A stretch of 64,000 nucleotides of DNA from Promethearchaeati archaeon (lineage in GTDB: Archaea; Asgardarchaeota; Heimdallarchaeia; Heimdallarchaeales; Heimdallarchaeaceae). Below are positions 58,488 through 63,496 of the stretch, in pieces. A program made the translations under genes and the position numbers. Location of the stretch: NCBI GenBank assembly GCA_013166775.1, contig JABLTJ010000007.1, forward strand, positions 62,001 through 126,000, in the 5' to 3' direction. Positions within the stretch are counted from its first letter, which is position 1. Every line of letters starts with the position of its first letter. The notes under the pieces were generated by a model. That model saw nothing but the letters and a program-made list of their open reading frames with translations, ran no database searches and was not told the origin of the DNA.

Positions 58488-59213
58488 TCATTTCTTTATC
58501 TTTAATTGTTTGATTATGACTTCTGCTGCTTCCATTCTTGCTTGTTTCTTATTTCTACCTTTCCCTCCACCTTTATATTCCACTGCATCTATTTTAACTA
58601 AGCACTCCATTATATAGACAGGTTCATGCTCTTTCCCTTTTTTTGAAAGGAGACTGTAAGTAGGAAGATCATATCCCCTCTTTTGACAAAACTCTTGCAA
58701 AAGATTGATTGGATTCCTTTCACATACAGCTAATTTCAATAGTTTATTTCTTTTTTTTGTGTCGGAGAGATCTTTACGGAATTTTTCCAAATCTCCAAGA
58801 AAAAGCTGATTAAAGAACTCTCTGGCTATATCAATTCCTGTAGAAAGGTAAACTGCTCCGAAAATTGCTTCTAGACAATCTTCGATATCAGTAGTTGTTA
58901 TTTTATATTTTGGTCGAACTATCAGTTTTTTGTGTAAATTGATTTCTTTTCCTATCTCAGCTAGACTTTCAGTTTGAACTAGAAGGGATCTTAGTTTAGA
59001 TAGAATCCCGACATCCTCCTTTAGATTTTTGTACAGCCATTCAGCAGTAAACATATCTAATACTGCATCTCCTAAGAATTCTAATCTCTCAAAATGATTC
59101 TGTTCAGGTCTTATGTTTGTCAAATTTGGATGTGTTAGTGCTTCGATTAAAAGATCATTTTCGATTTCCCATCCATTTACAGTGCTTCTCTCTAAATCAA
59201 TCATAGATCTCAC
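58488..59213 (-). CDS. rnc: Ribonuclease III
   Basis: FERLEFLGDAVLDMFTAEWLY signature; ECLEAIFGAVYLSTG-like DCLEAIFGAVYLSTG; C-terminal dsRBD GGGKGRNKKQARMEAAEVIIKQL. Confidence 0.93.
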   Translation of the reverse strand: MRSMIDLERSTVNGWEIENDLLIEALTHPNLTNIRPEQNHFERLEFLGDAVLDMFTAEWLYKNLKEDVGILSKLRSLLVQTESLAEIGKEINLHKKLIVRPKYKITTTDIEDCLEAIFGAVYLSTGIDIAREFFNQLFLGDLEKFRKDLSDTKKRNKLLKLAVCERNPINLLQEFCQKRGYDLPTYSLLSKKGKEHEPVYIMECLVKIDAVEYKGGGKGRNKKQARMEAAEVIIKQLKIKK

Positions 59214-59256: not shown

Positions 59257-59727
59257 TTGTTTGAGAAAAATAGAATGGAATTCTATAATCCAATACATGA
59301 TATGAAGGACTTAATCGGAAAGTGGGAAGGGAAACTAGAAAAAGATGAAAATAAATCAGCATCATCAATAATATTCAGCTATCATGGTTCAGATATTATT
59401 CAGTATGAACTGAAGATTAACCTTACAAATGAAGAAAAAATCCTTGAAACAGGCTTCTTCTTCTTTGATAAATTAAAAGAAGAACTAAAACATATCGTAT
59501 TTAATGAAGAAGGATATATTGAAGTGAATTCAATGACCTCTTCAAAGAAAGCAAAACTTCTCAAAATGACGAGTTCTTTCGATACTGGTTATAATCTTCC
59601 TCCCAATATGAAAATAAAGAGAGATTTTAAACTAAAAATAGTTGAAAGAGAGTTAGATATTTTTCTGAAAATGGGCAAAGAAGCAAATCTTATCTTAGAA
59701 GGAAGTTATAATAAAAAGGAAAAATGA
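59257..59727 (+). CDS. Beta-barrel (nitrobindin/FABP-like) hypothetical protein
   Basis: LIGKWEGKLEKDENKSASSIIFSYHGSDIIQYELKI alternating strands; likely ATG at 59275. Confidence 0.4.
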   Translation: MFEKNRMEFYNPIHDMKDLIGKWEGKLEKDENKSASSIIFSYHGSDIIQYELKINLTNEEKILETGFFFFDKLKEELKHIVFNEEGYIEVNSMTSSKKAKLLKMTSSFDTGYNLPPNMKIKRDFKLKIVERELDIFLKMGKEANLILEGSYNKKEK

Positions 59728-59794
59728 ATATCAAGTTAAATCAGATTGAGAATAACATAAATATTATTAGTGTTAAAATTAAGATTAATGATGA

Positions 59795-60292
59795 TTGCAT
59801 TTGCCCAAGGATTTCAAAATCTATTATTGTGAAAAAATTACAGATGAAATCTCTGAACATGTAGAAAATGTACTAAGAGATTTATTTGGTCTGCAATTTC
59901 GTTCAGTAGGAGTTCATATTCCTAGGGTAAATGCTTGGGATGATCATTCAAATGCTTATGATGCTCGTAATCTGCTTGAGCAGATGGTAGCTGAAAGATT
60001 ATCATTTTTCTTGTGGTTAATCACTGTACCTATTTCTTTAGATCAAAAATCAATTTTTGGATATGCAGAACCGTTAAAAGGGACTATTGTTTCTACCTCA
60101 AAAATGGCTACTAGAACTCTAGTTGCTAAAGAAGCAGCATATTTTGTTGGAATAGTTTTGGGATTGAGTTCTTGTAGAAATGAATGTTTAATGCAATCTG
60201 CAGAGAACTTTGAGGTATTGATAAACAAACCATCAACACTTTGTTCTACATGCAATGCCAAATATAATCGATTAAAATTAAGATATATGTAG
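59795..60292 (+). CDS. Archaemetzincin-family protein with degenerate catalytic site
   Basis: KEAAYFVGIVLGLSSCRNECLM aligns to KExxHELGHxxGLxHCxNxxCxM; downstream LCSTC retained. Confidence 0.7.
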   Translation: MHLPKDFKIYYCEKITDEISEHVENVLRDLFGLQFRSVGVHIPRVNAWDDHSNAYDARNLLEQMVAERLSFFLWLITVPISLDQKSIFGYAEPLKGTIVSTSKMATRTLVAKEAAYFVGIVLGLSSCRNECLMQSAENFEVLINKPSTLCSTCNAKYNRLKLRYM

Positions 60293-60297
60293 ATAAT

Positions 60298-61461
60298 CTA
60301 TTCGAAGAAAGCAGTCTTAGAATATTTTACATCTTCAGCTATAACTCTCTCTCCTTCGTTCCATATTACTTGCTTCCCCCATGTTTTTTCTATTTCAACC
60401 AAACTCATCTCGAATTGTTGAGTAGTTTTATTTAGATATGTTTGTAATTGATTGAGCTTCTTTTGAATATTCACTCTATTACCTTTTCCAATTCCTGGGC
60501 ATGAAAAATCTAAGTCTACAATTATCTCATTTTCATCTACCTTTGAGACCAAAAATGGATAAAACTTACAATTAAAGGGTGCATATTTGTAAATTATACA
60601 TTCCCTATTCTTTAATTCTTGAAAAGTGCATATTCCGTTTTTTTGTTTTAAACAAAGTCCAATGTCTATTTTTCCAATATTCACTTTCTCTTTACCAAAA
60701 ATTGGTCTAGAGAAATCACTAAGAGTATATTTGAGTTCTTCAGATATTCTAATAGCTTCTGAATAACTTAGTGAAGGCAAATTACATGGAAAACAAATTC
60801 TATTTTTGAATGTAACCAGGAATTCCTCAATGTTACCCAGATTATTAGGGATTGGATTAGCTGAAAAATTACTTGGATATTCACAATAATTACAGCTTAA
60901 ACATTCAAAAAAGCATTTTTCAGGAATATTCCAACGTATTAGAACGTTTTCAGCTTCTATTACTTTAGTTGTTAAATAGAAAATTTTCGTTTCTATTTTC
61001 AGATTTTTTTCAACAGCTAGACTTCTAATCTGCTCACAAATGTCATCAATTGTACTATCTCTATAATGTGTTCTAAATCTAAAAAGATAATCATTTCGAA
61101 TTCTTAGTTTTGGGATAGATTCCAAATTTGAGAGTATTTTATTTCTTACCGAGATATCTTTTAAAAAAAGAAGAATTTCGTCTGGACATTCTGTATGAGA
61201 TCCATAAATTACTCGCATTTCCAAATCATTTTTCATTTCATAGGGATTAGATTCCCAATACGAATCAACTAGCTTTCTGTCTGAGATATATCCTAGTCCT
61301 ATTGATTTTCCGTCTTCTAACAGTTTTTCATTTACTCTTCTCAGGATATATGGAGAATAATTGAATAGTTTAGGATCAGGATTATCAGAAATTAAAATAG
61401 ACAATAGATCTTCTTCCGCCTTTTTTTCTATATCTTCACAAATCAGAAAACGTGAAACCAT
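60298..61461 (-). CDS. YkgJ-like Zn/Fe-chelating Cys-cluster protein
   Basis: FECLSCNYCEYP, CFPCNLP, CLKQKNGICTFQELKNRECIIYKYAPFNCKFYPFLV; ORF track extends to 61590 but MVSRFLI start at about 61461 avoids overlap with the divergent gene. Confidence 0.6.
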   Translation of the reverse strand: MVSRFLICEDIEKKAEEDLLSILISDNPDPKLFNYSPYILRRVNEKLLEDGKSIGLGYISDRKLVDSYWESNPYEMKNDLEMRVIYGSHTECPDEILLFLKDISVRNKILSNLESIPKLRIRNDYLFRFRTHYRDSTIDDICEQIRSLAVEKNLKIETKIFYLTTKVIEAENVLIRWNIPEKCFFECLSCNYCEYPSNFSANPIPNNLGNIEEFLVTFKNRICFPCNLPSLSYSEAIRISEELKYTLSDFSRPIFGKEKVNIGKIDIGLCLKQKNGICTFQELKNRECIIYKYAPFNCKFYPFLVSKVDENEIIVDLDFSCPGIGKGNRVNIQKKLNQLQTYLNKTTQQFEMSLVEIEKTWGKQVIWNEGERVIAEDVKYSKTAFFE

Positions 61462-61543
61462 AGTGTACATTAGCTGAAGATTGCTAAAAAATTTTTGTAC
61501 GTACAAGATAGATTTTTTAATGAAATTATAATGAAGACATATA

Positions 61544-63496
61544 ATGAATATAACCTCTAAGTTGTTAGTTTCATATAATAAAATAAACAATTATAACAAT
61601 AGCAACAATCTTAGGGGTCAAAATCTTGTTCTTAGTAATTTTCAAATTTTGGGGGAGTTATTCTTAATTCATCTTGCTGATAGAAGTGGATTATTAAGAA
61701 ACTCAAACAATTTTCCAGAAAAATATGAAAAAACGAAAAATCACTTCCTAGACATTTTTTCAAAGAAATTTAATGGAGAGTATATAACATTTTATCAAGA
61801 ATTAAGAGAGATTTTCACAACTGAAGCATTCAAAGAAAAAGATGATCCTTTTGGTATGCTTTATCAACAAATCATCTCAGCTACTAAGAAACAAAATAAA
61901 GGAATAGTTTTCACTCCATTTTCAATTATTGATTATATCCTGGAGCAGTTAAACTATCCAGAATCATTAGAGAATTCAGAGACAGCAAAATTAATAGATT
62001 TAGCTTGTGGATCCGGATTGTTTTTATCTAGAGCAACAAGGAGAATATGTACTTTAGGTAAGAAACAACAATTATCTCCACAAAAAATTGTAAGGTTTAT
62101 GGAAAAATCGATTTTTGGATTCGATATAGATCCTATTGCTGTTTTACTATCAAAGATCAATATAGTAATGGTGCTAATGGAAACTCTCAAAGCTGATTAT
62201 CCTTTTGAAAATCCAATATCAATAAATGTGCATAAAACAAATTCAATGGTTAAAGAGGGTAATTCCGATTCAAAGATAATTAAGGAAATTAAGTCAAGCA
62301 GTTTTGATTATATTGTAGGTAATCCTCCATATATAGAATCAAAGAAGATGGATATAAAAACCAAGAAAATTTGTCAAGAAAATTTCCCAGAGGACGCTAA
62401 AAGACATTATGACATTTATGCATTATTTTTAGTATTAGGAGCTAGTATGTTAAATGATACTGGACAATTAGGATTTATAATTCCAAATAAATTCCTCATA
62501 TCTAGATTTGCAAGACAATTCAGGGAAAGATTTCTAGAGGAAAATCTTATCTCTCAAATTTTGAATTTAGCACATCAGAAAGTTTTCATACCAGCTGTAT
62601 ATCCAATAATTTTACTTCTAAATAAACAAAGAAAAAAAGAAGAATCAATTAAGATGTTCACTAATATAGATTTAGAAGAGATTGCAACATCAGAGCTACA
62701 CAATAGAACAGAGTTTGTTAGTCCTGGATTTTTCGAAAAAACAAAAAACAAAACTATCTATTTCCCCCAAAACTGTGCCTTTCCTTTATTAGAAAGAGTA
62801 TTCTCTCAATCTCAACACTCTCTTGGAGATGTCATTAGATTCAGATGGGCTATATCTTTTCATAGGAAAGGATTAAGGGAGCAATTTGTTTCGAAAACTC
62901 CAAAAGGTGATAATCCACAAAAATTACTGGGGGGTAAACCTTTTGGTGGAAATAGGGAAATTGAGAGATATAAGGTAAAGTGGAATGGTTATTGGCTTGA
63001 TTACGATCGAGAAAAATCAACAACTCTTAAAAATAATTTTCAAGACTTGAAATACTTCAAGGAGAAAAAAATCATCATATGTCAGCATGCTTTGAGAATG
63101 AGAGCAACAATAGATACGCAAGGTTACGCTTGTAAAGATATTTTTCTTTTAGGACACCTACGAGATATTGGAAAACAACTAAATCTTTCGTTAGAATTCA
63201 TTTTAGGGTTATTGAATAGTAAATTGTTTAGTTTCATGTTTAACATAATGTTCTCAGGTTCAGAAATCATGGGAAAATATCTCCATTATCTACCTACATT
63301 TCTTCATGATCTACCGATTCTTATTCCTTCTGAAACAGAACAGAAACTGATGGAAGAGTACGTAAATCAAATGCTTAAAGAAGTAGATGATGAAGTTGAT
63401 AATAAAATAGATGAACTAGTTTTCAAATTATATGATTGTACGGAAGAAGAAATTAACTCTATAGAAGACCATATCTCAATGCATTTAGTAAAATAA
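61544..63496 (+). CDS. N6-adenine DNA methyltransferase (Eco57I-like, possible type IIG or orphan)
   Basis: FTPFSIIDYILEQL, LIDLACGSGLFLSRATRRI, DYIVGNPPYIESKKMD; C-terminal specificity-like region. Confidence 0.9.
   Translation: MNITSKLLVSYNKINNYNNSNNLRGQNLVLSNFQILGELFLIHLADRSGLLRNSNNFPEKYEKTKNHFLDIFSKKFNGEYITFYQELREIFTTEAFKEKDDPFGMLYQQIISATKKQNKGIVFTPFSIIDYILEQLNYPESLENSETAKLIDLACGSGLFLSRATRRICTLGKKQQLSPQKIVRFMEKSIFGFDIDPIAVLLSKINIVMVLMETLKADYPFENPISINVHKTNSMVKEGNSDSKIIKEIKSSSFDYIVGNPPYIESKKMDIKTKKICQENFPEDAKRHYDIYALFLVLGASMLNDTGQLGFIIPNKFLISRFARQFRERFLEENLISQILNLAHQKVFIPAVYPIILLLNKQRKKEESIKMFTNIDLEEIATSELHNRTEFVSPGFFEKTKNKTIYFPQNCAFPLLERVFSQSQHSLGDVIRFRWAISFHRKGLREQFVSKTPKGDNPQKLLGGKPFGGNREIERYKVKWNGYWLDYDREKSTTLKNNFQDLKYFKEKKIIICQHALRMRATIDTQGYACKDIFLLGHLRDIGKQLNLSLEFILGLLNSKLFSFMFNIMFSGSEIMGKYLHYLPTFLHDLPILIPSETEQKLMEEYVNQMLKEVDDEVDNKIDELVFKLYDCTEEEINSIEDHISMHLVK

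Follow-up and report, generated by a model that had tools for sequence, protein, structure and literature searches.

What remains of a protease once its catalytic site has been erased from the gene, and why would such a gene be kept? This question is raised by a reading frame in the window, by which we mean the whole 64-kb (64,000-nucleotide) stretch of DNA that was analysed. The frame was first described as a pseudo-archaemetzincin with an erased catalytic zinc site and a kept structural Cys site. Archaemetzincins, whose role in biology is unclear, are widespread in archaea and vertebrates; the two that were crystallised as AmzA, from Archaeoglobus fulgidus and Methanopyrus kandleri, were inactive in standard assays (PMC3427221). 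Our literature search found no paper joining archaemetzincin with Asgard archaea or with pseudoenzymes.

Homology, predicted fold and the erased catalytic site

The frame at 59795-60292 (+) is open and intact, as stated in the first-pass annotation, but the in-frame TTG at 59795, with which that annotation had started it, is probably not the start. The codon at 59801 is TTG in 20 of the 21 orthologues and GTG in the remaining one, whereas the codon aligned with 59795 is not a start codon in most of them. Since a start codon is kept in 21/21 at the former position and is mostly absent at the latter, TTG 59801 is most likely the true start, and the residue numbering used here counts from it. Coding on the reverse strand was rejected, the complementary frame being full of stops, and the gene contains only one other open reading frame (72 aa). 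A sequencing or frameshift artefact was ruled out because the gene is intact in each of 21 genomes and also in JAGLTB010000118.1, a public record. The nearest named record, the Candidatus Heimdallarchaeota metagenome-assembled genome RS_9_76, is 88% identical. The gene and the features discussed below are:

59801-60292 (+): pseudo-archaemetzincin gene, 163 aa, M54 homologue, TTG start (PF07998, AF2/Foldseek, conserved start codon)
60062-60079 (+): pseudo-specific Y88/E90/K93 (Y in 20/21, E and K in 21/21), aligning with the edge strand that lines the substrate cleft
60128-60172 (+): erased catalytic zinc site, KEAAYFVGIVLGLSS where KExxHExxHxxGLxH is expected (21 orthologues aligned with 23 paralogues or relatives)
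60173-60187 (+): two Cys of the structural Cys4 zinc site, C125 and C129 (CxxxC), unchanged across 21/21 orthologues and 23/23 relatives
60191-60193 (+): Met-turn methionine M131, invariant in the pseudo and active groups
60242-60253 (+): the other two Cys4 residues, C148 and C151 (CxxC), invariant in both groups
60269-60286 (+): C-terminal R157...R161-Y162 motif (R157 in 20/21, R161 and Y162 in 21/21), absent from the active paralogues

The first-pass annotation had proposed an HMM search against Peptidase_M54 and a structure prediction as checks, and both returned archaemetzincin. PF07998 (Peptidase_M54) matched the window protein with an E of 8e-6 and 26.4 bits (HMMER), above the Pfam cut-off of 24.4 bits, and matched 21/21 orthologues at E 0.01. 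A sequence search of the PDB returned the archaemetzincin 3zvs (E 1.1e-5), and the orthologue profile matched A. fulgidus AmzA over nearly its full length (E 5e-13). The AlphaFold (AF2) model had a pTM of 0.88 and a pLDDT of 89.6, the latter reached by the best of five models (the other four, 67-78). In Foldseek it aligned with 3zvs, 3lmc, 2x7m and 4axq at TM 0.82-0.84; over all solved archaemetzincins the TM was 0.79-0.84, and other metzincins were weaker. The window protein is thus predicted to keep the archaemetzincin fold.

Its motif, KEAAYFVGIVLGLSSCRNECLM...LCSTC, differs from that of an active enzyme by H>Y114 (H1), E>F115 (catalytic Glu), H>I118 (H2) and H>S124 (H3), and every letter of these substitutions had been read correctly in the first pass. 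So had the retained KE, G, LGL, Cys residues and downstream CSTC, which in our numbering are K110, E111, G117, L120-G121-L122, C125, C129, C148 and C151. M131 is kept as well. None of the 21 orthologues has a His at H1, H2 or H3 or the catalytic Glu. The H1 position is occupied by F or Y, the Glu position by H, Q or F, and H2 by non-ligand residues, mostly I (I/K/L/R/F/T), while H3 is variable (P/A/K/S/E/D/Q/I). As judged from the alignment, the zinc ligands and catalytic Glu of HExxHxxGxxH that would mark an active archaemetzincin are missing, and proteolysis is probably absent. By contrast, the pattern Cx3-4CxMx16-17CxxC, comprising the Cys4 site and the Met-turn, was found in 21/21, and K110, G117, G121 and L122 are also invariant in the pseudo group and common to the active group. 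The absence of four functional residues in all 21 sequences amid invariant neighbouring columns is far from chance. The Cys4 site presumably still binds zinc.

Furthermore, about two dozen residues that the pseudo sequences share almost without exception are rare among the active proteins, including E11, D15, F33, R34, G37, P41, E90, K93, L140, R161 and Y162. Alignment with AfAmzA and the description in PMC3427221 suggest that the Y88/E90/K93 segment is the edge strand. Some of these residues could be catalysts of an enzyme with a changed mechanism, which would use the old cleft without catalytic zinc and with E90/K93 or other pseudo-specific residues. In line with this, E90, K93, E11, D15 and R34 occur in every member of the pseudo group but in few or none of the active proteins. 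However, the old catalytic positions 118 and 124 vary among unrelated residues, and therefore constraint of the kind expected at a catalytic site is missing from the middle of the cleft. We consider a changed mechanism unlikely.

Distribution, selection and the active paralogue

Orthologues of the pseudoenzyme were detected in 19/21 genomes of the genus and in 2/2 of the sister genus, 21 in all. At E 1e-30, a search of the phylum (231 genomes) gave none outside the family; one further row at this threshold, G004:C163, is the active paralogue of genome G004. In G002 and G008, the two genus members without the pseudoenzyme, the adjacent RNase III is missing too, so their assemblies may simply not include this stretch. 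In the single-contig genome G023, which belongs to a third genus, the RNase III is present and both the pseudoenzyme and the barrel described below are absent. Since the genomes are mostly fragmented assemblies of limited completeness, absences are soft, except in four genomes with intact flanks (see below).

The 21 pseudo sequences form one clade with support of 100/100. With phylum-wide outgroups, this clade is sister to the active paralogues of the family, but the join is weak (86/31) and the stem is long; therefore, the duplication is placed probably, not certainly, on the stem of the family. According to the first-pass annotation, sister-genome orthologues with an intact HExxHxxGxxH would have pointed to strain-specific decay. 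No such orthologue was found, and the intact copies form a paralogous clade apart from the pseudo clade.

The window protein is 48-62% identical to its orthologues, when its nearest relative (G005) is set aside. All 21 orthologues have exactly 163 residues, with no indels between them. Pairwise dN/dS (Biopython estimates, pairs >70% identical) was 0.05-0.31, and similar values were obtained for the active paralogue (0.08-0.37). In nine pseudoenzyme pairs, substitutions at codon positions 1:2:3 were 145:86:346, that is, 346/577 fell on the third position. Purifying selection on the pseudoenzyme is clear from these sequence comparisons, at a level like that of the active paralogue. Strain-specific decay was ruled out by the same loss in 21 orthologues, the dN/dS values and the lack of indels. 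More generally, a decaying pseudogene could be suspected from the weak TTG start and from the occurrence of M54 decay in the class, where a copy in G042 has a stop and a frame break. Identical length without indels in 21 genomes, the dN/dS range and the conservation of the start codon and of an upstream element refute this explanation, to which we give next to no probability. The earlier proposal of a conserved pseudoenzyme rather than random decay is thereby well supported.

Other M54 variants were observed in the phylum. The 51 M54 frames inspected, which are not a full census, included no loss of all four residues; HExxH was intact or one or two motif positions were changed. L128:392-943 (-) (G059:C512) and L024 (G047:C180), both from the same class, carry Gln in place of the catalytic Glu and keep the His residues (HQLGHLIGLNH and HQIGHVCGLEH), the same Glu change as in CarG, and L128 has also lost the first Cys. 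A second, longer M54 paralogue of about 220-285 aa (L130-L137, L143 and L144, mostly in family f19) has one extra site residue in every inspected copy, HExGHxxxGxxHC versus HExxHxxGxxHC. In L138 (G220:C21) the third His is replaced by Ala (HEFGHSMGLEAC); vertebrate AMZ1 is likewise without the third His. The G042 copy (L147, G042:C42) is a genuine decaying M54 gene, in which the third His is gone and the frame breaks immediately after CVM, and it contrasts with the conserved pseudoenzyme.

The genome of the window also carries a separate intact M54 paralogue (KESVHECGHILGLGHC, L001:1381-1890). The presence of this paralogue in 15/21 genomes of the genus and in both of the sister genus, together with the fact that pseudoenzymes often regulate active cousins (PMC11266112), would fit a regulator or decoy of the paralogue that binds the same substrate, or the paralogue itself, and modulates proteolysis. 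However, the active copy was undetected in G003, G006, G009, G014 and G018, which belong to one sub-clade and retain the pseudoenzyme at full length. In the first four, the genes usually flanking the active one, which encode a glycosidase-like and a 91-aa protein, are next to each other, and no M54 lies between them, with at most 16-21 aa of weak similarity. Because the pseudoenzyme persists where the active copy is gone from between its usual neighbours, it is unlikely to depend on the active enzyme, and this nearly refutes a role as regulator of the paralogue. Relaxed selection in the sub-clade would rescue it, but no listed pair there was above a dN/dS of about 0.23. Moreover, there is no linkage between the two genes in G000, where they lie on contigs C65 and C75. 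We regard this explanation as quite improbable.

The upstream barrel and its surroundings

Directly upstream of the pseudoenzyme gene, wherever contigs reach, lies a second gene on the same strand:

59275-59727 (+): 150-aa beta-barrel of the nitrobindin fold (THAP4-like), starting with ATG at 59275, candidate partner (PF08768, AF2/Foldseek)
59757-59767 (+): ATAANNNTTAT element, located 44-46 nt upstream of the TTG start codon, at the same position in 19/21 orthologues

The barrel protein matched PF08768 with an E of 1.5e-7, and 8/19 barrel members matched at E 0.01 when searched singly. Its AF2 model (pLDDT 90.9) aligned with Arabidopsis nitrobindin and Rv2717c at TM 0.71-0.73 in Foldseek, and a sequence search of the PDB with the barrel profile gave no match. 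Its orthologues are 35-48% identical to the window copy, again with G005 set aside, so it diverges faster than the pseudoenzyme (48-62%). As far as contigs reach in the genus and sister genus, the conserved order is RNase III (-), barrel (+), pseudoenzyme (+), an extra gene (-) in some genomes, and DNA methylase (+). Of 58 genomes, 21 have both barrel and pseudoenzyme and 37 have neither, with no exceptions. Both genes trace to a single clade, and therefore this co-occurrence counts as about one evolutionary event. By its linkage and co-occurrence, the barrel is a candidate partner of the pseudoenzyme.

The gap between the two genes is 73 nt. The ATAANNNTTAT element, which has seven matches across the whole window, is probably part of the pseudo gene's own promoter (TATA/BRE region). 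Given the gap and this seemingly separate promoter, the two genes need not share one transcript.

The RNase III at 58488-59213 (-) is of the bacterial type with a dsRNA-binding domain (PF14622, PF00035) and is conserved in the family. Such an enzyme is unusual in archaea. Downstream of the pseudoenzyme, the gene at 60298-61590 (-) encodes a 430-aa protein with several Cys clusters and no Pfam match above cut-off; it lies between the pseudoenzyme and the methylase in only some genomes.

The presence of RNase III and DNA methylase among the neighbours, the retained Cys4 site and the conserved basic C-terminal residues R157, K159 and R161 could also point to a zinc-finger-like nucleic-acid binder, whose basic tail would contact DNA or RNA. 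However, the window protein matches no nucleic-acid-binding family, RNase III is encoded on the other strand, and in some genomes the further gene separates the methylase from the pseudoenzyme. In addition, CarG, a characterised inactive archaemetzincin, is without DNA binding (PMC8156234). Binding to nucleic acid thus has a low probability.

A proposed binding role and comparison with known systems

The best explanation of these data, to which we assign a probability of roughly 0.55, is that a duplicated archaemetzincin became a non-catalytic binding module stabilised by its Cys4 site, with the barrel as a possible partner. The duplication would probably date back to the ancestor of this family of Heimdallarchaeota. 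One duplicate would have remained an intact M54 protein, and the other would have lost the three zinc ligands and the catalytic Glu, with fold, Met-turn and Cys4 structural site staying. The latter copy may then have acquired its own invariant set (E11, D15, F33-R34, V36-G37, P41, E90, K93, L140, R161-Y162) and most likely now acts as a protein-binding module, in which the Cys4 zinc would hold the C-terminal half. What used to be the substrate cleft would form the contact surface together with the R/Y tail at the C-terminus, and the leading candidate partner would be the barrel encoded just upstream. The binding or regulatory role suggested in the first-pass annotation would agree with this explanation, with CarG as a precedent and the barrel as the candidate partner.

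More tentatively, the two proteins could constitute a module of one Heimdallarchaeota family, independent of CarD-CarG, in which a barrel without a heme ligand and an archaemetzincin without catalytic zinc are bound as a ligand sensor or scaffold. This is possible, though doubtful. In any case, selection for fold and Cys4 site after loss of the catalytic site, even without an intact paralogue, suggests that the family can be retained for binding alone. It would represent a natural separation of catalytic and binding functions in Asgard archaea, with a specific candidate partner.

The window protein shares fold, Cys4 site, Met-turn, KE and LGL with the AmzA proteins of A. fulgidus (3zvs, 4axq) and M. 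kandleri (2x7m) (PF07998/MEROPS M54), but is without their catalytic zinc ligands and catalytic base. Inactive ADAMs (e.g., ADAM2, QLLSLSMGITYD) are metzincin-fold proteins with zinc ligands and base replaced, Met-turn kept and non-catalytic roles (PMC11266112); unlike the window protein, they are animal membrane proteins of family M12 and have no Cys4 zinc site. In place of this site, metzincins other than archaemetzincins have disulfides (PMC3427221). The barrel resembles nitrobindin and the THAP4 C-terminal domain (PF08768) in its ten strands, GxWxG motif and the TM values given above. It may differ in heme binding: its 19 orthologues have no conserved His column, whereas nitrobindins hold heme via a proximal His (PMC10094804).

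The precedent for a non-catalytic binding role is CarG of Myxococcus xanthus, a homologue of archaemetzincins that has no protease activity and binds tightly to CarD (PMC8156234, PMC3427221). CarG (NCBIfam NF033824, non-proteolytic archaemetzincin-like) has kept the Cys4 site and Met, like the window protein. It has lost only the Glu and the motif Gly; its three zinc-binding His are still there (HQxxHxxExxHC), and it binds two zinc ions, whereas the Heimdallarchaeota protein has neither the catalytic Glu nor any of the three His. NF033824 scored the window protein at 18 bits, far below its equivalog cut-off of 250 bits, and weakly matched 16/21 pseudo members (best E 9.9e-7). The carD gene lies directly upstream of the CarG gene (PMC8156234); here, the upstream gene encodes a nitrobindin-fold barrel and not CarD. 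In both systems the archaemetzincin homologue is encoded downstream of another protein, which is the known partner in M. xanthus and the candidate partner in Heimdallarchaeota.
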